NCBI GenBank assembly: GCA_945910005.1
Contig: OX246746.1
Coordinates: 43,911,690 to 43,975,689, forward strand
Origin: Isoperla grammatica
Lineage: Eukaryota > Arthropoda > Insecta > Plecoptera > Perlodidae
DNA length: 64,000 nucleotides
Reading direction: 5' to 3'
Position 1 is the stretch's first letter. Every line of letters begins with the position of its first letter. Below the pieces are notes generated by a model, which ran no database searches, had not been told where the DNA came from, and saw only the letters and a program-made list of their open reading frames with translations. Positions 986-63,518 of the stretch are shown piece by piece. The position numbers and the translations under genes are program-made.

Positions 986-2440
986 AATCCCTCAACTACT
1001 TACATTGGCTTGGTTCCAGGGCCGATATGATGGTCCAGGTTCTAGCCCACTGTTCCTCCGAGCACGTCAATGCCTGCATTAGTGCCCGAGAGCTATACAT
1101 GAAACATTGTCCCCCAACTACTTACATTGGCTTGGTTCCAGGGCCGATATGATGGTCCAGGTTCTAGCCCACTGTTCCTCCGAGCACGTCAATGCCTGCA
1201 TTAGTGCCCGAGAGCTATACATGAAACATTGTCCCCCAACTTCTTACATTGGCTTGGTTCCAGGGCCGATATGATGGTCCAGGTTCTAGCCTACTGTTCC
1301 TCCGAGCACGTCAATGCCTGCATTAGTGCCCGAGAGCTATACATGAAACATTGTCCCCCAACTACTTACATTGGCTTGGTTCCAGGGCCGATATGAAGAT
1401 GATGGTCCAGGTTCTAGCCCACTGTTCCTCTGAGCACGTCAATGCCTGCATTAGTGCCCGAGAGCTATTCATGAAACATTGTCCCCCAACTACTTACATT
1501 GGCTTGGTTCCAGGGCCGATATGATGGTCCAGGTTCTAGCCTACTGTTCCTCCGAGCACGTCAATGCCTGCATTAGTGCCCGAGAGCTATACATGAAACA
1601 TTGTCCCCCAACTACTTACATTGGCTTGGTTCCAGGGCCGATATGATGGTCCAGGTTCTAGCCCACTGTTCCTCCGAGCACGTCAATGCCTGCATTAGTG
1701 CCCGAGAGCTATTCATGAAACATTGTCCCCCAACTACTTACATTGGCTTGGTTCCAGGGCCGATATGATGGTCCAGGTTCTAGCCTACTGTTCCTCCGAG
1801 CACGTCAATGCCTGCATTAGTGCCCGAGAGCTATACATGAAACATTGTCCCCCAACTACTTACATTGGCTTGGTTCCAGGGCCGATATGATGGTCCAGGT
1901 TCTAGCCCACTGTTCCTCCGAGCACGTCAATGCCTGCATTAGTGCCCGAGAGCTATACATGAAACATTGTCCCCCAACTACTTACATTGGCTTGGTTCCA
2001 GGGCCGATATGATGGTCCAGGTTCTAGCCTACTGTTCCTCCGAGCACGTCAATGCCTGCATTAGTGCCCGAGAGCTATACATGAAACATTGTCCCCCAAC
2101 TACTTACATTGGCTTGGTTCCAGGGCCGATATGATGGTCCAGGTTCTAGCCCACTGTTCCTCCGAGCACGTCAATGCCTGCATTAGTGCCCGAGAGCTAT
2201 ACATGAAACATTGTCCCCCAACTACTTACATTGGCTTGGTTCCAGGGCCGATATGATGGTCCAGGTTCTAGCCCACTGTTCCTCCGAGCACGTCAATGCC
2301 TGCATTAGTGCCCGAGAGCTATACATGAAACATTGTCCCCAACTACTTACATTGGCTTGGTTCCAGGGCCGATATGAAGATGATGATCCAGGTTCTAGCC
2401 CACTGTTCCTCCGAGCACGTCAATGCCTGCATTAGTGCCC
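986..2440 (+). repeat. 12-copy, 122-bp tandem array carrying a splice acceptor and partial AGAP exon
   Basis: The splice-acceptor block TTGGTTCCAG recurs 12 times, first with its AG at 1018-1019 and last at 2365-2366. The spacing is 122 bp, except for one copy 6 bp longer (copy 4) and one 1 bp shorter (before copy 12). Each copy holds an acceptor followed by the codons for the start of the AGAP ankyrin exon, then about 40 bp of other sequence. Copies alternate CCCACTG and CCTACTG over copies 2 to 10, which suggests expansion by two-unit (244-bp) steps. Only copy 12 runs on into the intact rest of the exon. Copies 4 and 12 share an extra 6 bp (GAAGAT type) that fits the AGAP family length better. 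Confidence 0.93.
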
Positions 2441-2511
2441 GAGATCTGCGGACGCCACTTCACCTGGCTTGCGCGATGGGGAACTTGGCCATCGCACAAC
2501 TGCTCATATGG
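2367..2511 (+). CDS. AGAP: AGAP/centaurin-gamma Arf-GAP, penultimate exon (ankyrin repeat)
   Basis: The exon lies between acceptor TTGGTTCCAG and donor GTAAGT. Its frame gives [12 protein letters not shown], then [20 protein letters not shown], an ankyrin repeat with the TPLHLA hallmark. From memory this aligns with the C-terminal ankyrin region of vertebrate AGAP proteins (pattern LLAHGS..EVN, LHL, QLLIW). AGAPs are multidomain GTPase-activating proteins for Arf, with GTPase-like, PH, Arf-GAP and ankyrin domains, acting at endosomes and membranes. The donor is in phase 0 and matches the next exon. The 5' half of this exon is the template of the upstream 12-copy array. An AGAP assignment fits better than ACAP/ASAP because of the QLLIW segment and the following tail. 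Confidence 0.82.
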
Positions 2512-3301
2512 GTAAGTTTGCTCAACATTATGTAATTGCATTAGTCAAACTACGTAATTGCATGAAAGAGATATGATGCCACCACTTACCCGAGTAGAGA
2601 GATATTAATTGCCGCGGTAAAAGAACATTGAATACATAACATAATAAACAACTGAAAATAATGTTTTCTATTTTTCTATCAACGCGACCTTCCTCAGTTA
2701 GTAGAGCTGGTTGTATTACTCTTCCTTATGTATTTCTATCCAAATAGGCGTAGGTACCCTACGTCTATTTGGATGATGTTTAGTGGTTCTTTTCTTATCC
2801 AATATTAATGAGAAGGGTAATAAGAAAGTCTTAGATCTCTTAATGTGTATTAAGAGCGAAGGGTAGTCTCTACGAAAAAACCGCACAAAACTTTCATTAT
2901 TTAATTATATCTCAAGATTGCAACAACAAATCGGAAATCTAAATCAACAACGCACTGTGTTTTTGTAAGCCCTACAGACTGAATGAAATATAACCATTAG
3001 CGTTGTTATTTGGATTATTAATTTGATAATTAGTAATAAAACTAATGATACATAAAAAAACATACTGATTACAATGTAAGACAATTTAAAGCATTCAGTA
3101 TGTAGAGCTTACTAAACCGCAGTGCGCTGTTGATTCAGATGTTTGAGTACAAAGCCCATTCTTGTGATATAATTTATAAATTAAAATGTTGTGCGGTTTT
3201 TGACGTAGAGGTATCCTTCCCTGTTAAATGCCAAGGAATTAGTTTTAAGGACACTGTAATATCGTTACCTGCAGAGGGATCTTAATGTTTCCTGATTGCA
3301 G
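2512..3301 (+). other. AGAP last intron, 790 bp
   Basis: It is bounded by donor GTAAGT and acceptor TTTCCTGATTGCAG. It is AT-rich, and I recognise no repeat or RNA gene in it. Confidence 0.6.
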
Positions 3302-3535
3302 CACAATGGCAATGTGAAGGCTGTAGACCACGAGGGAAGAACATGCCTTGCATATGCTCGGGCAGCCCAATCTCTGGCGCTCTCAAAGACAAACAACAGC
3401 GTTTACCCCGAAACATCACTAGTCGACCTCCTCGTTGCAAACGGCTGCCCCGAAATGGCCAGCGGGACTCTACCGCGCAGGAGAACTGATTCCACCCTTC
3501 CATCGATGGACAAACTCCCATCCAGTGTCATATAA
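3302..3535 (+). CDS. AGAP: AGAP/centaurin-gamma, last coding exon with stop
   Basis: The exon encodes 77 residues starting [20 protein letters not shown], the next ankyrin repeat, and continues to [12 protein letters not shown] and a Ser/Thr/Arg-rich tail ending before TAA at 3533-3535. The order D.GRT..AYAR...DLL..GCP matches the AGAP C terminus. An insertion of about 13 residues (around [13 protein letters not shown]) lies inside the repeat where vertebrate AGAPs are shorter. Intron phase 0 joins it to the exon ending at 2511. The 3' end of the transcript is not determined. Confidence 0.82.
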
Positions 3536-7128: not shown

Positions 7129-8788
<1,660 letters not shown>

Positions 8789-33527: not shown

Positions 33528-36500
33528 AGGTTACAGTCTTTTTTGTAGCAGCAAGATGTACAATTAGTACTTAATTGTAGCTATATAATTGTTGTCCTTA
33601 TGTTAAATATGATAAATACGAGCGATGAAGTTTGTGAAATGTTTTTGTGCTGGTTAGTACATTACCGCGTGTTGGTAATAGCCAGCTGGAATGTGGCTTG
33701 GTGTCAGGTTTATAAAGGGTATGGAAGCGGGGAGAGGGGAGAGAGAGAGAGGGGAAGCCGGCACTGAGAGAGATATTTACGAGAGAACAAAACACAGCTG
33801 CTATCAACACCGGCATAGCCCCGCTGGGAAAAAGTGCAAGCACGACTGCACATAAATACGAAGGCGCGCGCACGTCCATTGTGTCAATGCAACATTTGGG
33901 AAACACATGTGCTGTGCAAAGGGTATAAAGGCCGGGCGGTTAGCAAGTGGGCGCCCCCCCCGCAGAGAAACATGGACATCCAATTAGCGCTTCAAGTTTC
34001 ACTAGATGGGGCCATTAGGCCTACCCTGGGAGGGGGGGGGGTCTGGTGAAGGTCATCTTACCCATCTCTGTTGTGTCTGGTAGCTTCCGGAGTAGGGGGG
34101 AGGGAGGCAGGGGTATTGTATGGGTTTATTTATGGTTTAAAAGCTCAAACTGCGCGGCTGGTATATCACAAAAGGCGTATAAATGGGTGGGCATATTTAT
34201 TTAGGCTTGATTTACAGGGCGTATAAACGAGAAAGTCGTATATCTGAGAGTTGTATAAGTGAATTATTTTAGCATTGCTTCTTATGGAGGACAGAAAAAT
34301 ACCATATAAAAAGGGCGTATAAGCGGGATAGTCGTATAAACGGGAGTTGTATAAACGGGAGTCGACTGTATGTATTTATTTGACTTGCGCACGTAATATC
34401 GATAGAAACCCATGATAACGATAACGATAACACCTAAATGTCGATGAGTCGTTTAATTTCACATAATGATCATCGATAATTCATCCATTTTAAACCGGGA
34501 AAATTTGAATCGCCGCCAAACACCGACATTTGTGTACTTAGTGTAAATTGGTGAATAACACTGAAATTCAAGTTGAAAAACATTAAATTTCCAGATATTT
34601 TTTATTACAACGCGATTTTTTTTATTTTGGCTGGCGTTGACATAAAAATAGTGTCTCAATCCATCTCGCATAGGAGTATCTCGCCACTTTTACATGCATA
34701 TTGCATACTGTCTTTCTTTCGACGTAATTGTGTAGAAGGCTAATATTTACAAAGTAAGATTTTTGAAAATTTTAAGAACCACTTTATGCACAATTTTTGA
34801 AACATTAACCTCGCTTTATATACCTGCCAATAAACCGATAATGAAACTGTTACTGTACCGAAATCGAGTAATTGTATTCACCATAAACCAGTGCCCCTAG
34901 GTAATACGGGTCTAGGTATGTAAATGGAACGTTTTGAGTTTTGTAGCAGGTGGAACGAAAAATAAGTTTTAATAGAATATAATAAGAAAATATATGATTT
35001 GGCTTTGCACATTTTAGCCTAGGTGCACCCTGCATGTGACCACAAACTTCAAGTCTGGCATCTGATTTGGTAGTTTTGCCGCCCCCGCCTACCCTGGCAC
35101 GAATGTAATCTCTGATAATATTATGTAACTATGTTTGAAAAAGGGAATCAATTATTTAATAATTGCATTCTTTAAAGCTTGGACGTTGAAACAGTCGGTG
35201 GTAACAACTCTCCACCCGCCCAAGAAACGCCACATTTGAAATTGGTTCGTCTACACCCCTGAAACACGTTGGAAAAGGGGAACCCAGGCCAGGATGCAGC
35301 TTGTGGCCTGACAAGAGTGAATGGGGCGAGTCAGACGTGGAAGTTATGAATGAAAGTGAAACTGAACATAACAACTCTCCATCCGTACTAGAAACGCCAC
35401 ATTTGAAATTAGTGACGATTTCATTGACGATTTCATTGTAACGATTCAATCATTGACGATTTAGAAAGGGTCCTACATACATCAGTTTTGAAAATCATCT
35501 ATTCGCACTGTCAGTAAACGTGTCCGTCACTTTGTTTTGTTTATAATATTTGACACAGCGCCATCAAGTTGACGTAATGATAGCTGTTTCATTTATCATT
35601 CCATTTGTGTTTATAGTCACTAGTAACAGCTGTCAAAGCCATTTACGAGATTATTATTTTGGGGTTTTTACGACGTACCCCACAGCTACGACTACGATAT
35701 AGACTATATGCTCACACACACACATTTTTTTAGACGTCTGTGTCTATGGGTGTGCGTTACTGTTATTTTCGTGGTCGTTGTTGTTTTTGTTGTTGTTGTG
35801 GAAGTGGTTCCTATGCTCCTCTCTTACAACCCGTTACGTCAATGGCGAGCATTGTAGGCTTTAGATGTAGTCTAACGGAGCATCGTACTTTGTATGTATG
35901 TATGTTTTATCGTGACCCCGTCGTAAGTTACGATATATTTACGCTACGCGCATACAACATTCGTACCTAAAACGTACGGCTACCGCGTGCGGAAGCGGTT
36001 TGTTCTTGTACAGCGGCCCGATACGAACTCCTCCGCTGCGTGAGACCTACTGGTGGGTCACGTGACCAGCGCCAGTCAACGAAACGGGGGTAGTTACGAT
36101 CTCACCCGAGAATGAACGAACAGAGTAACAATCTCCGCCCACTGTGCGCTCACCGAAACATCTTTTTCCGTACGATCTCTCAGCTTGGAGTTGGCCCCGT
36201 CGACTAGAATCCTCTTAATTGTTTTTAATGTTGGTGATTGAAGGGAGAAATTGTTGGAAGTAAGTGGGTGATATAAATCGCAAATTTTGTGGGCACAATA
36301 ACAAAATACTCGTGCATGGCTTCCGTCACTCAGTACTCGTATATTACAGCACGCCCTTATCTAATGCGTGCGGTTTAAAATTTAAAGAAATAATTTAAAA
36401 AATCCGTGTTGTGTCACAAACACAAAACAAAACTACGTTAAAACAAGGTTGGAAAAACATGATGGGGATTGGAAATTACCTTGCTACTCAAAAGCTGAAC

Positions 36501-39500
36501 TCTTAAACTAAATATTATGTTTATCTAACATGTTCACGAAGATTTCATTTTTTGTACATATCACCCAGTACTATTTTACCTCAGTTTTAAAGCAATAACG
36601 GTATAAAAACATCAATACGAAATCAGCCCAGTGTCTATATTAATTCAATTTGTGTTCACTGTTCACTTTCGATGTATTTTAAACTATTCTCCGCGCTGCG
36701 CATCCTTCATACATCAAATAGTATTATGATAAATCCCGTCGTAAAACCAACAGTTTTCAAATTGTGCGCGTAGTAGCGTATTGAAGTAGTTCACTATACC
36801 CCCGCGCTGAGCGCTAGTGTCAACTTATTGACGGAGCAGAAGAGGCCGGCCTCGCGAGCTAGTAACCTATACCAACTGCAGAGGGAGAAACAATCAGTGC
36901 GCCGATCAACGACATCTAGCGGTGGTATCCCGATGGGCGCGCAGATTCAAACTGGTAGCGGCTGGGACTCTGCCTATATTTTAGACCCAATGGCTATATA
37001 GTATATTTGATACTCAACTCAAACTAGAAAGTATTACGGAACTCACACACCCTAGATCGTAACCAGCTTGGGATTTTTGATGGGAGCTAAACATGATCAC
37101 CCAGGACCACCTGAAAAGTTTGGTCCCGTCTGCTACACTTTCAGGTTGGTTAGAAACATTGTACTTACAATTTGTATGTGTCCGTGCGTATGTAGTCCAT
37201 TACGTGCGATACACCAACTTGAAGTTGGTCGGCAATAGGCGTAACCCACGGGTTATTCTCCATCTTAATAACGGACTTGTTGCTGGCCAGGTCCAGATTG
37301 CCTTCAACAAGATAGTATTACGGGCAAGTTATTTACATGATTCTGCTGATGGCTCTCATTTACAATACCTACACCCATAGTAAGGTTCAAAGTTCAGACT
37401 TCTCATTCTCTTCTCTTCATTCATTAATACAATTTATAACTGCTTTATAGGGCCTAAGAATACCCTTCCCTATAGTAGGCCTACTGTAGGACCATCATAT
37501 TTTAAACATTACTCTGCAGTCTGCACCCCCACCACGCCCATGTATTCGGCTGCCACACGAGAGTTATTCATTTTAGAACATGGATATCGGTACAGGTATT
37601 GATAAGCTTAGAAATGTGTCAACAACAAACGTTGTACTCGCACAACTACTTGCAACAAAGACAGCTACCAGTGCAGTGCAGCTACCAAGACAACTCCACT
37701 CACCTTACAGTCATTGGGCAGCTATCAGTACAAAGCAGGCCTCCAGTCATGGCAAGCCATGCTCTTAGCAACTCCACTCACCTTACAGTCATTGGGCAGC
37801 TATCAGTACAAAGCAGGCCTCCAGTCATGGCAAGCCATGCTCTTAGCAACTCCACTCACCTTACAGTCATTGGGCAGCTATCAGTACAAAGCAGGCCTCC
37901 AGTCATGGCAAGCCATGCTCTTAGCAACTCCACTCACCTTACAGTCATTGGGCAGCTACCAGTACAAAGCAGGCCTCCAGTCATGGCAAGCCATGCTCTT
38001 AGCAACTCCACTCACCTTACAGTCATTGGGCAGCTACCAGTACAAAGCAGGCCTCCAGTCATGGCAAGCCATGCTCTTAGCAACTCCACTCACCTTACAG
38101 TCATTGGGCAGCTATCAGTACAAAGCAGGCCTCCAGTCATGGCAAGCCATGCTCTTAGCAACTCCACTCACCTTACAGTCATTGGGCAGCTACCAGTACA
38201 AAGCAGGCCTCCAGTCATGGCAAGCCATGCTCTTAGCAACTCCACTCACCTTACAGTCATTGGGCAGCTACCAGTACAAAGCAGGCCTCCAGTCATGGCA
38301 AGCCATGCTCTTAGCAACTCCACTCACCTTACAGTCATTGGGCAGCTATCAGTACAAAGCAGGCCTCCAGTCATGGCAAGCCATGCTCTTAGCAACTCCA
38401 CTCACCTTACAGTCATTGGGCAGCTATCAGTACAAAGCAGGCCTCCAGTCATGGCAAGCCATGCTCTTAGCAACTCCACTCACCTTACAGTCATTGGGCA
38501 GCTATCAGTACAAAGCAGGCCTCCAGTCATGGCAAGCCATGCTCTTAGCAACTCCACTCACCTTACAGTCATTGGGCAGCTACCAGTACAAAGCAGGCCT
38601 CCAGTCATGGCAAGCCATGCTCTTAGCAACTCCACTCACCTTACAGTCATTGGGCAGCTATCAGTACAAAGCAGGCCTCCAGTCATGGCAAGCCATGCTC
38701 GAAACTAATCTACTTCACCTTTAGGCTTACAGTGAAACTTTGATTTTACGAACGTAACGGGATATACAAAAATTCATTCATTCAAGGAATTTGTAAAATC
38801 AAAACCCATTGTTCTTGTGGGAAATTATTTGGGACCAGGAAAAAATACTTACCATCAAGGAATTGATTGCTTCAAGGAACGTAAACTCAAAGTTTCACTG
38901 TATATGTTATGAGGGGGATAGAAACCCAGAACATACCTATTTCCGGTGGCAGGACAGAGAGACGGTTGCCCTGGACATGTAGCTCACGCAGTCGAGTTAG
39001 CTCTCCAATTTCCTTTGGCAACTCCACAATGTCGTTGTCGCGCAGCACCAACTGACAAAATAGATTAAACAAATAGAGATGGGCTGATTCAAATATGCCA
39101 GTAGCAAGTTAAAATTCATGATATTTGAGTTGTTACCATCTTTTATAACATGCCAAAAATTCGATAGGTAGGCCTAAATCAGTCCCTTGGTTGTCACTGC
39201 CATATTTATGCCAACGATTTAATTTTCGCGCTAAAACAAATTCTCTTCTTATTTGCTGCAGACCAAGTCTGAGCATGCTCTCGTGGTATTTAACTGCAGG
39301 AAAGCAACTAAACTGAATATAACAGAACCAAATTCCCCGAGGTCTGCAGTCAACTGATGTAGGCCTACATGGCTTTCGACCAAAGATTGTAATGCTTTTG
39401 GACCACTGCGCTCGACCGCATTACTAAGCTATTAGTTTTTCATATGTTGTCTAACTCACAAGGAGAAATTTCTCTTTACACAGCATTTTTTTTTAATTTT

Positions 39501-57500: not shown

Positions 57501-59718
57501 TGTACAAAGAGGTTAAATTTAAAGATCAAATTCACAATCACAAAACTAGGAATAAGGGAAATTTTTACTTGGAAACAAAAAATAAGTCTAGTAGTTTAAG
57601 ATCAGTGAACTTTCAGGGTTTTATAGAATATGATAAGCTACCATTAGTAATAAAACAATGTAAAATTTTAAGTTTATTTAAAAATCGATGTAGAAAACAT
57701 TATGAATAACTAGTAATTCCTGAAGCAAAATTGTTAATTGCATAGGTAAGTTTAATAATGTAGAAACACAAACACAAAGGATAATATATATTATACAACT
57801 ACAGATAATCAAACATAGCAAAAATATTGTAATCATGTTATGTGTTATTATAATGACAACGACTGTAATAACTGTACTGAGAGTAGCTATAAGAGCTAAA
57901 TAAATATTCTACTACTACCACATATCTGTAGACCAAGCCTCTAGGCCATATTGATATTATGGCATAGTGAGTTGTGTGACCTGCAACCTTCGCGTTCTAG
58001 GTGGGTTGGTTATTATTAACACCAGCTGGAGGTAGACTATGACATATTGGCACAAGTTCCTTGCAGTTGGCATTAACTTTGTGCTGTTGGTGCGACTAAG
58101 CCCTTGCCACCAAGAATAAGAACTGGAACTAGAATTTAACGTGCACACTAAGACTTGTTCTAGGTCTTGACCATGGTGGCTATCTAGCAACCCTGCATTC
58201 GCCCCTCGTCTTTATAACATCTTAAAACTCTCACTAAGTATATCACAGGAGTAAGTTCGGAGTAAATAAGCTCGCACGACGATAGGCCGAACCGTATATC
58301 AATACGTTTAATATCGGGCTAACTACAGCCGCACTAAACACGGGACTCACCGCCTGCTACATGTGACTATTTCCAAGAGCAACCACCTTTGGCAATTACT
58401 AACCGGCCCCCTACTAACGCCCCCTTTTTAGGCCACTGTAAAACATATCAAACTGTCGAAGTGTGTTTTTTTCTCTATTAGTTATAGATCGCATGCCACC
58501 TGAAACCATTATGTTTAATTTCGTGTTGTTGTTAGTTAATCAATATAGGTTCTTTCAAATTAACCCGCAACGAGCACTAGTTTTTTGTTGCTAATGGATT
58601 CGTCGATGAGTGATTATCAAGTTGCAGTGGAAGTGAGCAATGCGTGTATCAAGTACAGCTGGCTCTATTTAACCGTGCTGGCCCGTCAGTCCGGTTCAAT
58701 ATAATATGCATTCAGGTGTATATCAAAGATTTCAAGTTCGCATTGATGCCAGTTAGAGCTAAGTTAGGTCGGACTAGCGCCTGTGGTATACGTAGTGTCT
58801 GACATTGCTGGCAAAACTGGAGCTAGAATAAGACCTAGGCCCTAGGGCCCTACCCTACACCTAAACCAAGAACAAGAATTACTATCTACAATAATATTCC
58901 GACACGTTTCTAGGCTAGCATATTTGCCTTTGCTGGGCCTAAGCATTTGTAAATTATGACACTGCAATGATATTAAAATTGATGCTAAAAACAAAACGGT
59001 TTTTCTTACATGGCTAAGCTGAGGGGGAGAGGGGTGCTTCAACTAGGTCTACCTAGGCCTAGGGCTTCAACTTGGCATAAGCAAAGAGTCCAATGTCTGC
59101 CAATGTAACCTTGTCAATGTAAGAAAAATAAACTAGGCCCTAGGCCTAGGCCTAGGCCTAGGCCTACAAGACTGACATTTGGAAACGAAGATAGCTCTCG
59201 TCTTAAGCCAATTATAGGTCTAGGCCCTAGGGGCCTAGGCCTAGGCCTACGCTACCCAGCCTAGGCCTAGGCCCTAGGCCAGTCAAGCGTCCTGTCTAGC
59301 CTAGGCCTAGATCATAATAACCACTTTGCCTATCACACATTTGGGCAGGCCTTAGGGACCGTTTTACATCACCATTCATAATTTGGGTGGACCATAGGCC
59401 TATTACCCCCAGATTATGTATCTAAACCAAGTCTAGGACTAGGGCCTAGCCTAAGCTTACGCCCAAACCGCACCCACGTGCTTTCCTGGGGGCTACGCCT
59501 ACTTTTAGACAGCACGAAGAGAAAAATGTCAAGGCAACAACCGCTACCGAGTAAAACAAGTTACCTTATTTGGTAACAGATCAAGTTCGCACAAAATCCC
59601 ACAGGTACTTACAAAGCCCAGGCATTTCCTCGAATGTTGCCATGCCTTTATCAGCTAAATCCAGCTCTGGATTCTGGATTTCTTTCGCTTCATCCAGGAC
59701 TTTCTTAGCTTTCGACAT
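17719..59718 (-). CDS. RSU1: RSU1, Ras suppressor protein 1, 8 coding exons, 273 aa
   Basis: Coding exons in transcript order are 59613-59718, 52956-53006, 52746-52866, 49703-49821, 46671-46753, 38937-39051, 37169-37301 and 17719-17812. All have GT donors and AG acceptors. Exon lengths (106, 51, 121, 119, 83, 115, 133, 94) sum to 822 nt with phases that match at every junction, giving 273 residues plus stop; the human protein has 277. The product is a run of leucine-rich repeats followed by the PWVTPIADQ segment and a Lys-rich tail. RSU1 is a cytosolic adhesion protein that binds the LIM protein PINCH in the integrin-linked kinase complex and dampens Ras signalling. The human start MSK- supports ATG 59718 over the in-frame ATG 15 codons upstream. 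The introns hold nearly all the mobile elements of the window. This is a single-gene assignment with no plausible alternative, and no disabling mutation is seen. Confidence 0.96.
17872..18300 (+). repeat. tRNA-derived SINE, copy 1
   Basis: The head resembles a tRNA with A-box TGGTCCAGTGGTTAGCAT and B-box GGTTCAAATCC. The body contains GTGACTTTGGAGCCGTCCTA and CACTGATTCATATGTTTCG, and the tail is (ATTT)n. The same family occurs at 19429-19855 and 47462-47762. It would be transcribed by RNA polymerase III from the internal boxes. It lies in RSU1 intron 7. Confidence 0.9.
18425..19280. mobile_element. Possible hAT-type element with ATATCGATAT-rich ends
   Basis: Both edges are dense in overlapping ATATCG palindromes (18440-18520 and 19245-19270), like the ends of the confirmed element at 52283-52722. 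The inside contains a palindrome around 18735-18760 (GTAGTAGTACTACT type). The exact termini and target duplication are unclear. Confidence 0.4.
19429..19855 (+). repeat. tRNA-derived SINE, copy 2
   Basis: It has the same head (GTGGCTCGTTGGTCCAGTGG), body and (ATTT)n tail as the copy at 17872, with a few substitutions. It lies in RSU1 intron 7. Confidence 0.9.
20208..20618 (+). other. Unrecognised ORF with two possible membrane segments
   Basis: This 136-codon frame contains a compact hydrophobic part, FVWLLGLQYFPYQLPQWQ then ILGSIAAGLLLSLFEVVNF, followed by a charged tail with KNKRPS and a stop. A splice-acceptor-like TTTCTCGGTTCAG stands just before the hydrophobic part (near 20404). The first 60 codons overlap sequence resembling a hAT terminus (AAAATCGTGATCGATAATC). 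It could be a last exon, a gene fragment carried by a transposon, or chance. I do not recognise the protein family. Confidence 0.25.
20885..21145 (+). repeat. Degenerate tRNA-derived SINE
   Basis: TTCCAATGCAGAAGGTCCAG and GGTTTGATTCC resemble the B-box part of the SINE family at 17872. GGAGCTGTCATAGCAACGAA and the (ATTT)n tail also match. The copy is diverged and truncated at its head. Confidence 0.7.
21246..21575. repeat. (TAA)n tracts flanking a hairpin
   Basis: (TAA)n-type tracts occur at 21246-21290 and 21511-21574. Between them is a 61-bp-arm hairpin (21286-21346 paired with 21420-21482). The hairpin loop carries the hammerhead-like motif listed separately. Confidence 0.85.
21350..21418 (-). 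ncRNA. Degenerate hammerhead-ribozyme-like fold
   Basis: On the - strand the order is GTCGAC, TTA, a short stem GGG..CTC, the core CTGAAGA, a stem GTCCC/GGGAC with loop TCACAGAA, then GAAA and GTCGAG. This is the order of hammerhead conserved elements (CUGANGA, stem II, GAAA, stem III). Stem III pairs UCGAC with GUCGA, but one unpaired C intervenes, so activity is doubtful. Hammerheads of this kind are known in Penelope-like elements and retrozymes. Confidence 0.4.
22985..23095. mobile_element. hAT-Charlie-like terminal fragment in arm A
   Basis: CCAGTGTTTCCCAAACTGTG followed by ACCCACGAGC resembles hAT-Charlie ends. The inverse piece in arm B belongs to the complete copy at 26750-27030. Confidence 0.55.
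24781..25660. repeat. Central inverted repeat of the 15-kb element
   Basis: 24960-25200 and 25400-25645 are inverted copies sharing GGTGACAAGCTGTTAG, a (GTAA)n run and CAATAATATACTTGT. The spacer contains (TA)n at 25385-25414. It forms the turn between arms A and B. Confidence 0.8.
26750..27030. mobile_element. hAT-like MITE inside arm B
   Basis: The ends CCAGTGCTCCCCAAC and TTTGGGAAGCACTGG are inverted copies of a Charlie-type TIR. The inside contains GCGACCCAC repeats and a run of 14 G. The flanks GCCAAGAC and GCTAGACC are similar but not identical. Confidence 0.6.
27558..28029 (-). pseudogene. Unrecognised coding-like core of the 15-kb element
   Basis: On the - strand a frame reads WSIIIASALEGDCYAPKHIA, then KRSPNKTFQSLGRAQELVTK and DKLPRHIRYNKLVRQNKAF, up to a TTTGCAG site near 27774. 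A second frame then continues with VDMTNHTSTDTTDGSL, AADQYVLDVIVLRCSGE and AGDILVSLNPQNAGLRL to a stop at 27558. Codon use and composition look protein-like, and the TTTGCAG could be a splice acceptor joining the two. It lies between inverted copies B and C, outside the palindromes. I cannot assign a family; a transposase remnant or a captured host exon are both possible. Confidence 0.4.
31450..31592. repeat. Two-copy 73-bp tandem duplication
   Basis: Two near-identical units begin CAAGTCGATCAAATAAACAA and run through AACAATAAACAAAAAA. Confidence 0.9.
33379..34368. mobile_element. pogo/Tigger-like non-autonomous element, 990 bp
   Basis: The ends CAGTCGACTCCCGTTTATAC and its inverse are flanked by TA on both sides (33377-33378 and 34369-34370). 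Several internal copies of GCGTATAA occur near both ends. A T-run (33499-33528) and a GA-rich tract are inside. There is no transposase. It is nested within the TTAA element. Confidence 0.88.
37169..37301 (-). CDS. RSU1: RSU1 coding exon 7
   Basis: It encodes NLDLASNKSVIKMENNPWVT, PIADQLQVGVSHVMDYIRTD and TYK. The NNPWVTPIADQ block is an RSU1 signature following the last leucine-rich repeat. The donor is GTAAGT. The acceptor, TTGTTGAAG, has a poor pyrimidine tract. It lies only about 180 bp from the end of the 15.2-kb element. Confidence 0.95.
37691..38700. repeat. 78-bp minisatellite, about 13 copies
   Basis: The copies are identical apart from one C/T site (GCTATCAG or GCTACCAG; 8 T, 5 C) and a last copy cut after CATGCTC. 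The unit length is a multiple of three, so frames stay open for over 300 codons, giving 26-residue peptide repeats. It lies antisense in RSU1 intron 6 with no promoter or splice context, so I treat it as a satellite and not a gene. Confidence 0.95.
38937..39051 (-). CDS. RSU1: RSU1 coding exon 6
   Basis: It encodes LVLRDNDIVELPKEIGELTR and LRELHVQGNRLSVLPPEIG, two leucine-rich repeats nearly identical to vertebrate RSU1. The acceptor is TTTTGTCAG and the donor GTATGT. It starts in phase 0 and ends in phase 1. Confidence 0.97.
39052..40137. other. RSU1 intron 5, part, with a diverged duplication
   Basis: Poly-C followed by CATAGCTT..CTATTCATAAGT at 39822-39890 recurs at 40047-40110 in diverged form. 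Nothing else is recognised. Confidence 0.5.
40884..41390. mobile_element. Small DNA element with CCAGGC ends, 507 bp
   Basis: The ends CCAGGCCCGTAGGAA and TTCCTATGCGCCTGG are imperfect inverted repeats flanked by TAATAG on both sides. G-runs and C-runs next to the ends are inverted as well. GCGAAGCGCGG and GGCGGAGCCCCAG motifs are inside. The superfamily is not assigned. Confidence 0.75.
42000..42070 (-). repeat. tRNA-like SINE head, diverged
   Basis: On the - strand GCTAGCATGCACCAC and CACTGGTTTGATTCCC resemble tRNA A- and B-boxes at tRNA spacing. The copy is short and degenerate. Confidence 0.45.
42584..42850 (+). repeat. tRNA-derived SINE, second family
   Basis: A tRNA-like head (CCGGCTAATGGTTAGC, B-box GGTTCGATACC, closing CCGGC) is followed by an unrelated body with GAGGCGAATGCTGAAATTGA. 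The first and last bases of the head pair (CCGG/CCGG), as in an acceptor stem. It differs from the family at 17872. Confidence 0.65.
45765..46121. repeat. 3 x 119-bp tandem repeat
   Basis: Units starting CCACTCATGATTGATTAATA begin at 45765, 45884 and 46003. The copies are identical, which suggests recent duplication or a collapsed longer array. It lies near the right end of the TTAA element. Confidence 0.95.
46671..46753 (-). CDS. RSU1: RSU1 coding exon 5
   Basis: It encodes TLRALYLGDNDFEFVPPEVG and QLKNIQI after a split Glu codon. This leucine-rich repeat matches RSU1. The acceptor is TCTTCTCAG and the donor GTAAGT. The exon lies 138 bp from the terminus of the TTAA element. Confidence 0.96.
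47462..47762 (+). repeat. tRNA-derived SINE, copy 3, internally deleted
   Basis: It has the head and tail of the 17872 family but lacks roughly 100 bp between TGTCCAATCA and CAGTTTAGTTACTGAGTGGG. It lies in RSU1 intron 4. Confidence 0.9.
47880..48314 (-). pseudogene. Non-LTR retrotransposon RNase H / C-terminal fragment
   Basis: The - strand frame opens just after a stop with ADALAKLGSKK, the end of an RNase H domain. It continues to ATAQFRLATGHDVLQHHLSR and then C-x2-C ... H-x3-C (CKLCTLGFQDRAHLLSC), the zinc-like motif that follows RNase H in R1/I/Jockey-type LINEs. It is 5'-truncated and about 145 codons long. Confidence 0.75.
48764..49338. mobile_element. Small DNA transposon with GGGTGGAATAAGGGC ends
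   Basis: CCTGGGTGGAATAAGGGC near 48765 and GCCCTTATTCCACCCAGTG at its other end are inverted repeats. An internal + frame (48835-49104) has an acidic start (MADGDVSSDISSD), as some piggyBac-type transposases do, but ends after about 45 codons. No clear target duplication is seen. Confidence 0.55.
49381..49438. repeat. Near-perfect short palindrome
   Basis: GACCAGAGCTTCATTCAC (49386-49403) is followed after 14 bp by its exact inverse (49418-49435). It would form an 18-bp hairpin, which could be extended with gaps. Confidence 0.9.
49703..49821 (-). CDS. RSU1: RSU1 coding exon 4
   Basis: It encodes MNRLRALPRGFGAFPVLEVL and DLTYNNLDETTLPGNFFMM. The DLTYNNL..LPGNFF block is diagnostic for RSU1. 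The acceptor is GCTTACAG and the donor GTTAGA, which is weaker than the others. Confidence 0.97.
50882..50992. mobile_element. Very small hAT-like MITE, 111 bp
   Basis: TAGGGTTCGTTTGATTTACC and the inverse end AAATCAAACGAACCTA are matched repeats. A second copy of the left end (GGGTGCGTTTGATTTCCGG, about 50828) stands just upstream. Confidence 0.6.
52283..52722. mobile_element. hAT MITE, 440 bp, next to an RSU1 splice donor
   Basis: The ends TAGGGCTGCCCAACGATA and TATCG.TTGGGCAGCCCTA are inverted, and the 8-bp duplication AAAATGAT is perfect (52275-52282 and 52723-52730). The interior holds at least five TATCGATA motifs. It was inserted about 10 bp beyond the donor of RSU1 exon 3. No transposase is present. 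Confidence 0.95.
52746..52866 (-). CDS. RSU1: RSU1 coding exon 3
   Basis: It encodes VPPGLANLVNLEILTLFNNQ and IDELPTSLSSMPKLRILNV, two leucine-rich repeats. The acceptor is TCATTTCAG and the donor GTAAGT. It starts in phase 1 and ends in phase 2. Confidence 0.97.
52956..53006 (-). CDS. RSU1: RSU1 coding exon 2 (51 bp)
   Basis: This short exon encodes NMMNITRLTLSHNKIQ between acceptor TTTTCTAG and donor GTAAGG, in phase 1 on both sides. It fills exactly the gap between exons 1 and 3 and corresponds to the ITQL.LSHNKL repeat of vertebrate RSU1. Confidence 0.94.
53007..55076 (-). other. RSU1 intron 1, part
   Basis: An imperfect palindrome at 53222-53285 is centred on CGAAGGAGAATTCTCCTTCG. I see no other feature. 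Confidence 0.5.
55077..55900 (+). pseudogene. LINE reverse transcriptase (CR1/L2-like), 5'-truncated
   Basis: The + frame starts LYGIKENVLKWLMSYLENRT. It has RT motifs GVPQGSVLGPLLFIIYINDM and LFADDT (catalytic FADD), then LNVKKTKVMI and MKYLGIIIDNN. A stop interrupts at 55656-55658, but the same frame continues (PHFNYCNTVLF ... LQNRGMRTIL) to 55900, where a hAT element is inserted. These are typical RT fingers, palm and thumb of the Jockey/CR1 superfamily. It lies antisense in RSU1 intron 1. Confidence 0.9.
55906..57494. mobile_element. hAT element, 1.6 kb, inserted in the LINE
   Basis: The ends CAGTGTTGTAAAGTAGC and the inverse of CAGTGTTGTAAACG are flanked by the perfect 8-bp duplication GTAATTTG (55898-55905 and 57495-57502). 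Both subterminal parts are full of GTAGCG.GCTAC motifs. It contains only a short transposase fragment. Confidence 0.95.
56448..56738 (+). pseudogene. hAT transposase N-terminal fragment (BED-like finger)
   Basis: From ATG 56448 the frame gives MAFFKINQPTSSSGRVN, an acidic stretch and WPSYETFFSYKSAGKSG, then VQCKVC and SSSLLHKTI. The W..F......C-x2-C ... L..H arrangement resembles the BED zinc finger of hAT transposases. The frame ends right after, so the dimerisation and catalytic domains are missing. The element needs a transposase from elsewhere. Confidence 0.7.
57495..57709 (+). pseudogene. LINE reverse transcriptase, C-terminal end after the hAT insert
   Basis: The frame NLYKEVKFKDQIHNHKTRNK continues to GFIEYDKLPLVIKQCKILSL and FKNRCRKHYE before TAA. 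It resumes the LINE ORF that breaks at 55900. Joined across the hAT the frame is off by one base, so the LINE was already frameshifted or decayed later. Confidence 0.88.
57710..59612 (-). other. RSU1 intron 1, 5' part, with TAGGCCTA clusters
   Basis: Dense overlapping AGGCCTAGGCCT runs occur at about 59137-59300. I recognise no other feature. The LINE tail (TACTACTACC near 57910) ends the upstream element. Confidence 0.5.
59613..59718 (-). CDS. RSU1: RSU1 coding exon 1 (start codon)
   Basis: ATG at 59718 starts MSKAKKVLDEAKEIQNPELD and LADKGMATFEEMPGL, followed by 1 nt of Phe and donor GTAAGT. It resembles the N terminus of vertebrate RSU1 (MSKSLKK, D..D.G). An in-frame ATG 15 codons upstream is less likely because the family begins at MSK. 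Confidence 0.95.
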
Positions 59719-62722: not shown

Positions 62723-63518
62723 GGGGACGCTGAAAAGCGCCGAATGGAAAAACGCCGAATCGATCGTGTGTACTGCACTTTCAAGTATAATCCTAACCCA
62801 AAAAAGTAGACCTTGTAACCTGGAACAACGCCGAAACTTTTTCTGCGTTAATCCACCGGAACAACGCCGAATCTTTTTCGGCTTAAATCCACCGGAACAA
62901 CGCCGAATCTTTTTCTGCGTTAATCCACCGGAACAACGCCGAAAATTTTTCAACGTTAATCCACCGGAACAACGCCGAACCTTTTTCGGCGTAAATCCAC
63001 CGGAACGCCGAATCTTTTTCGACGTAAATCCACTGGAAAAACGCCGAATCATTTTCTGTGTAATACACGGTTTGAACGGTGCAGTGAGTACCGAATGTAT
63101 TGACGAACCTAAAAACATTTTTTTTGAAAAGAATTATAACCAACACTGTGAGATTCGGCGTTGTTCCGGTGGATTTACGCCGAAAAAGATTCGGTGTTGT
63201 TCCGGTGGATTAACGCTGAAAAAGATTCGGCGTTGTTCCGGTGGATTTAAGCCGAAAAAGATTCGGCGTTGTTCCGGTGGATTAACGTCGAAAAATTTTC
63301 GGCGTTGTTCCGGTGGATTAACGCAGAAAAAGATTTGGCGTTGTTCCGGTGGATTTAAGCCGAAAAAGATTCGGCGTTGTTCCGGTGGATTAACGCAGAA
63401 AAAGATTTGGCGTTGTTCCAGGTTACAAGGTCTACTTTTTTGGGTTAGGATTATACTTGAAAGTGCAGTACACACGATCGATTCGGCGTTGTTCCATTCG
63501 GCGCTATTCACGCTCCCC
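62723..63518. mobile_element. MULE-like foldback element, 796 bp
   Basis: The ends GGGGACGCTGAAAAGCGCCG and the inverse of GGGGAGCGTGAATAGCGCCG carry a perfect 9-bp duplication GGGGAAGTG (62714-62722 and 63519-63527). Nine bp is typical of Mutator-like elements. Each arm (about 340 bp) has around seven 36-bp units of the type CCGGAACAACGCCGAATC. The right arm is the inverse, with about 90 bp of spacer. Because 36 is a multiple of three, a 300-codon frame runs through, but it is a by-product. No transposase is present. Confidence 0.92.

Follow-up and report, generated by a model that had tools for sequence, protein, structure and literature searches.

The closest described counterparts of the array analysed here are the lancelet 'mirages', for which Canestro et al. 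(2002) is an earlier reference. Mirages are minisatellites at the intron/exon boundaries of lancelet globin genes, with Adh3 also cited (PMC3087553), and examples in TnC and PGBD5 were added in a report that describes splicing as undisturbed (PMC3902484). A splice-donor minisatellite has been described in human IFI6/G1P3 (Turri et al. 1995, cited in PMC4526556), tandem repeats occur at the exon-intron boundaries of human genes in segmental duplications (PMC2812944), and novel Drosophila introns derive from tandem duplication of coding sequence (PMC2891723). Here we describe a tandem array in an insect AGAP gene whose units span the intron/exon boundary, in which one authentic copy is joined to the full exon and the splice signal is kept in the repeat units (12/12 acceptors).

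Results

The array spans the splice acceptor of the penultimate AGAP exon

The window, a 64-kb stretch of DNA (C6:43911690-43975689) from an assembly of 874,298,753 bases in 603 contigs, carries a tandem array over the 5′ edge of the penultimate AGAP exon (Table 1). Each unit consists of 50 bp of intron tail with the acceptor and the first 72 bp of the exon, or 78 bp where a 6-bp block is kept. The acceptor decamer TTGGTTCCAG occurs 12 times on the plus strand of the window and 0 times on its minus strand, starting at positions 1010, 1132, 1254, 1376, 1504, 1626, 1748, 1870, 1992, 2114, 2236 and 2357. An initial annotation had reported 12 copies with the last alone joined to the full exon, which is borne out by Tandem Repeats Finder (TRF) and the acceptor positions; the 122-bp spacing that it gave holds for nine of the 11 intervals, but not for one of 128 bp, due to copy 4 with the 6-bp block AAGATG, and one of 121 bp, due to one C fewer before copy 12. 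Neither GTAAGT nor GTGAGT is present at any of the 7 GT sites of the repeat unit. The copies differ by scattered, partly alternating variants (C/T, A/T, 6 bp and 1 bp), and the alternation of a C/T variant over copies 3 to 9 suggests that part of the array grew in two-unit steps. The 1.5-kb array stretch matches one place only in the 874-Mb assembly, in a search that skips simple repeats and very common words, and a dispersed repeat or transposon-borne array was rejected on the strength of this single location.

The protein encoded by the array exon belongs to the ankyrin part, with Pfam Ank above the cut-off, and its homologues are of the AGAP/centaurin-gamma-1A family, the named ones among the 120 matches listed being insects and chelicerates. 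A PDB search returned ankyrin-repeat proteins and designed ankyrins, and no AGAP, among the 60 matches listed.

Upstream acceptors lead to premature stops

The upstream AGAP exon ends in ...GTTTGCAG at C6:43903989, the codon over the junction is AG|G, and the array exon is in phase (...TGC AG|G GCC GAT ATG...). Read-through from copies 1-10 covers 44 codons (46 for copy 4) and then reaches a TGA in the GCCGATATGA block of the following copy, a stop that had been proposed for every upstream copy; copy 11 escapes this TGA because it sits 121 bp from copy 12, and read-through from it meets a TAG at window position 2433, inside copy 12. Copy 12 is without a stop and gives the full reading frame. 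The proposal that a full frame follows from the last acceptor only, and a premature stop from the 11 others, is thus confirmed by frame reading of the sequence, and the distance from the premature stop to the end of the exon ranges from 76 to 1359 nt.

The exon part of the decoys has decayed

In many homologues the exon starts with S-N-M-K-x-I-I-x-V-L-A or a sequence near to it (e.g. SNMKQIIQVLA). Copy 12 aligns to the homologues gap-free, and the copies without AAGATG (ADMMVQVLAH) are two residues short. As both residues are present in the homologues, the block is ancestral and its absence from ten copies reflects a 6-bp deletion, in agreement with the earlier suggestion that the insert shared by copies 4 and 12 is ancestral. 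Conserved residues are kept in the joined copy and lost in the ten others, so that the decoys look free of coding constraint and, on sequence comparison, the joined copy looks like the constrained one. Decay of the exon part beyond the joined copy was also seen elsewhere, as a 9-bp loss in the decoys of one ArfGAP array, substitutions in one myosin array, and, in those C8 myosin units that were inspected, a deletion and a TAG. The acceptor AG was retained in 117/118 decoys, counted in 12 of the 13 acceptor arrays (that at C14:27938204 was left out, and one array was represented by its last visible copy in place of the joined copy). A mean divergence of 1.5% per base in the stretches compared predicts 3.5 AG losses, compared with 1 observed; the count leans toward preserved decoys, but the difference is not significant and allows no conclusion on selection.

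Further AGAP exons carry edge arrays

A further 120 kb upstream of the window was added to the analysis (region coordinates are C6 positions minus 43791689), and 12 AGAP exons were located, 11 by tblastn with an AGAP protein and one with homologues. Three of them carry arrays A, B and C at an edge (Table 1). The exon of array A was matched by 120/120 AGAP homologues (tblastn), and the AGAP GTPase P-loop exon was not found in the region, which holds an N run at 35612-35811. In each of the three arrays, read-through from the one copy examined met a stop, and the copies of arrays B and C are almost identical. Counting AGAP arrays with a period of at least 40 and at least 2.5 copies, 4/17 straddle an exon edge, compared with 0.31 expected by random placement (P 0.0003); when the given array and its exon were removed, three edge arrays were left (P 0.002). 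Another AGAP array (84 bp × 13.8), which lies upstream of the exon located at region 105667, showed no exon tie and was counted as intronic. The array units are mostly GC-richer than the region, as exons are.

RSU1, encoded on the opposite strand of the window, has an edge array at 0/7 exons located. A 78-bp × 12.9 array in an RSU1 intron (window 37691-38700) was left uncounted, as it could not be linked to any RSU1 exon; a donor-like AAGGTGAGT is present in its unit on the minus strand, which is the RSU1 strand. In a quick RSU1 tree built from the query and at most 28 named sequences picked from the 120 matches listed, the query groups with the odonate Hetaerina (support 0.92).

Minisatellites are dense across the 184-kb region around AGAP. 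The AGAP intron that holds the array also contains 41 repeats of a 55-bp unit (C6:43909652-43911906), inside which the window begins (positions 1-217), and a 67-bp unit × 117 (C6:43791690-43799656) is cut by the start of the stretch examined. Elsewhere in the window, a nearly unbroken AC repeat of about 510 bp (8279-8788) lies ~4.7 kb beyond the stop codon of AGAP, and two facing 36-bp arrays with reverse-complementary units (GGAACAACGCCGAATCTTTTTCGGCG...) lie about 90 bp apart, at 62822-63063 and 63151-63419.

Edge arrays in other gene families

Thirteen further edge arrays were found in ArfGAP, myosin, kinesin and ABC-transporter genes of the 874-Mb assembly (Table 1). Searched with Pfam profiles, the whole assembly yielded 85 myosin and 11 ArfGap matches (one of the latter being AGAP itself), 83/96 of which are inside an exon-centred sample of 46 blocks (128,456 bases) with 79 unique exons and a flank of at least 150 bp on each side of each; 3 partial-copy matches and 3 redundant array rows were left out. 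Taking match ends as approximate exon ends, and ignoring matchless exons in both observed and expected counts, 7/15 non-redundant arrays straddle an exon edge, compared with 1.53 expected, and seven or more did so in 0.0002 of 20,000 placements. Chance as the cause of the edge arrays was rejected by this and the AGAP placement test. Edge arrays are present at 7/79 exons of the sample versus 4/12 located AGAP exons; AGAP is unusually rich in them, and a gene-specific factor may be involved. All arrays found (n=17) comprise 13 at acceptors and 4 at donors, a bias that is only suggestive (two-sided binomial P 0.049), as the set was found partly via table hits and is not an even sample. The three C14 ArfGAP arrays look like parts of one ArfGAP gene.

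The kinesin family gave 132 matches, many of them multi-copy on C15, and, among 10 exons without visible partial copies taken from the remainder, an edge array at 1/10; a 59-bp × 2.3 array near a kinesin exon showed no exon tie and was counted as intronic. Partial copies were visible at one exon among 43 ABC matches and at 0/50 CCT matches, the latter in the match table only, which is an insensitive view. The absence of edge arrays from the located RSU1 exons, together with the CCT count, indicates that the array-forming process is uneven.

On C15, which may be an unusual chromosome, one kinesin fragment (profile 1-94, whole or in part) recurs dozens of times, with several of the copies in inverted pairs ~2 kb apart. 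At C1:33475044-33479396, a single myosin stretch (profile starting near 378) is matched six times in tandem at intervals of 0.5-1.4 kb; these may be the classic mutually exclusive Mhc exons.

Table 1 Location of the AGAP array, its host exon and the other edge arrays
Feature	Location	Strand	Unit and copies	Remarks
Tandem array	window 988..2444	+	122 bp × 11.9	TRF, 97% matches
Acceptor decamers TTGGTTCCAG	window 1010..2366	+	12, identical	First 11 are decoys, unjoined to the rest of the exon
6-bp block AAGATG, copy 4	window 1396..1401	+		Common to copy 12 (2377-2382), missing in the other ten
Penultimate AGAP/centaurin-gamma-1A exon, authentic	window 2367..2511	+		145 bp; last copy is its 5′ part
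Donor GTAAGT of penultimate exon	window 2512..2517	+
Last AGAP exon	window 3302..3535	+		Ends ...LPSSVI stop
AGAP array A	region, exon 57782-57993		112 bp apart, 12 donors	Donor CTCAAG, then GTAAG; first copy joined
AGAP array B	region, exon from 71115		53 bp apart, one 69; 15 acceptors	Acceptor TTTTGTCTGCCAG; last copy joined
AGAP array C	region, exon 112088-112300		135 bp apart, 8 acceptors	Acceptor TGTGTGCTAG; last copy joined
Myosin acceptor array	C1:25808171		155 bp × 2.8
Myosin acceptor array	C5:110014983		58 bp × 2.9
Myosin acceptor array	C14:41372274		134 bp × 3.8
Myosin acceptor array	C8:478881-485263		113 bp × 56.5	Acceptor matches: 56 exact, 57 looser
Myosin donor array	C12:8753137		151 bp × 2
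ArfGAP acceptor array	C14:27938204		122 bp × 2
ArfGAP acceptor array	C14:27946496		101-110 bp × 4.7
ArfGAP third array	C14:27948493		54-59 bp × 9	Joined end not seen
Kinesin acceptor array	C15		152 bp × 7
Kinesin acceptor array	C14		161 bp × 1.9
Kinesin donor array	C1		138 bp × 3.1
Kinesin acceptor array	C2		45 bp × at least 5.9	5 nt of exon per unit
ABC transporter donor array	C14		159 bp × 5.9

Discussion

The array is most probably a mutational, near-neutral minisatellite formed over an intron-exon boundary, that is, a mirage. A tandem duplication that reached from the intron into the exon would have produced a second acceptor and half an exon, and slippage or unequal exchange would have expanded these to 12 copies. 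The acceptor adjacent to the donor would be picked by exon definition and the upstream copies mostly removed along with the intron, with occasional use of a decoy giving stop-containing mRNA and little or no protein. Such an array would be tolerated because the copy adjoining the donor is chosen, and arrays crossing an exon edge would survive because one intact exon copy always stays at the end; the array itself would be near-neutral, unstable in copy number and subject to turnover, in a genome that would make such arrays often. The presence of the same structure on three other AGAP exons and in other gene families points to a mutational process.

The initial annotation had instead proposed that the array cuts AGAP output or tunes it, with the 11 upstream acceptors competing for the upstream donor to give degraded, stop-containing mRNA, so that output is lowered or linked to splicing factors. 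The position of the stop behind every decoy, 76-1359 nt upstream of the last junction, would suit junction-dependent decay of the mRNA, and the identity of all 12 acceptors over 10 bp and the retention of AG in 117/118 decoy acceptors (12 arrays) would fit such a role. An intronic minisatellite of C. elegans is described as over-represented near multiple alternative splicing decisions (PMC4039745). However, the same structure is found at other AGAP exons, one of them at its donor, and at both donors and acceptors of other gene families, the exon part of the decoys decays, and the lancelet counterparts are reported to leave regular splicing undisturbed (PMC3087553, PMC3902484), all of which makes a regulatory role of the decoys unlikely.

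Multiplication of one or two real copies by the assembler would account for the almost identical copies of AGAP arrays B and C, and a lancelet globin array was aberrantly assembled in the draft genome, as its authors report (PMC3087553). Such an artefact is nevertheless very unlikely for an array whose copies differ by scattered, partly alternating variants and whose 1.5 kb would fit inside an ordinary long read (which counts only if such reads underlie the assembly), in a genome with contigs tens of Mb long (the longest among those seen being 137 Mb) and comparable arrays at other genes on other contigs. Tandem exon copies can also be alternative or mutually exclusive exons, as the repeated myosin matches on C1 may illustrate, but the AGAP copies can hardly be such exons: a complete exon with acceptor and donor was not found in any of copies 1-11, which hold the 5′ half only, without the 3′ half and donor, the unit has no GTAAGT/GTGAGT-like donor, and every upstream start leads to a stop.

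Under the favoured mutational reading, the enrichment at exon edges needs a cause, which may be GC content, transcription or the conserved exon serving as a conversion template. It is possible, though we propose it tentatively, that in this insect lineage minisatellites arise preferentially at exon edges throughout the genome (7/79 sampled exons), more often at acceptors (13/17 arrays), by a process linked to DNA of the splice sites or to transcription, in which the conserved exon copy serves as a lasting template. If this is true, the splicing machinery has to single out the right acceptor from as many as 56 that are nearly identical, and the arrays provide a constant supply of new introns and of splicing variation that depends on copy number. 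New introns, as described for Drosophila (PMC2891723), are by analogy a possible fate of edge arrays. A natural tandem of identical splice sites is a direct test of spliceosome choice, in which nearness to the partner donor (exon definition), the first acceptor met and context can be separated, and a genome with many such arrays makes both this question and intron gain by tandem duplication countable from RNA-seq and long reads. In genomes of this kind, exons of automatic gene models may begin or end at decoys.

Comparison with known systems

No arthropod report of such arrays was recognised in the part of the open-licence literature searched, which is not proof of absence; as far as this search goes, the insect host, the several gene families and the high copy number are new. 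The human IFI6/G1P3 array is also a minisatellite of repeated splice sites in a transcribed gene, but its donors are used and give several mRNAs, whereas the arrays described here are mainly at acceptors and a premature stop is predicted from every upstream acceptor of the given array, in place of productive alternative transcripts. The repeats in human segmental duplications likewise cross exon edges with a possible effect on splicing; those repeats vary among recent paralogues and can generate introns that are new, whereas the present array lies beside an intact conserved exon (PMC2812944). The lancelet mirages share the structure of the present array: their units consist of an intron end and the 5′ exon part (BflGb6) or cover the 3′ exon edge (BflGb9), an authentic copy is joined to the exon, splice signals are present in many copies, units measure 10-160 bp, and concerted evolution acts within a cluster with the edge copies left out. 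The host here is an insect and several gene families are involved, and the copy number reaches 56-57 (C8 myosin), compared with 3 and 6 in two lancelet BflGb6 haplotypes. Length polymorphism and normal splicing are reported for the lancelet arrays, whereas the insect arrays are known from the sequence of one assembly. The array belongs to a known class, the lancelet mirages, and its scale in this genome is the new part.
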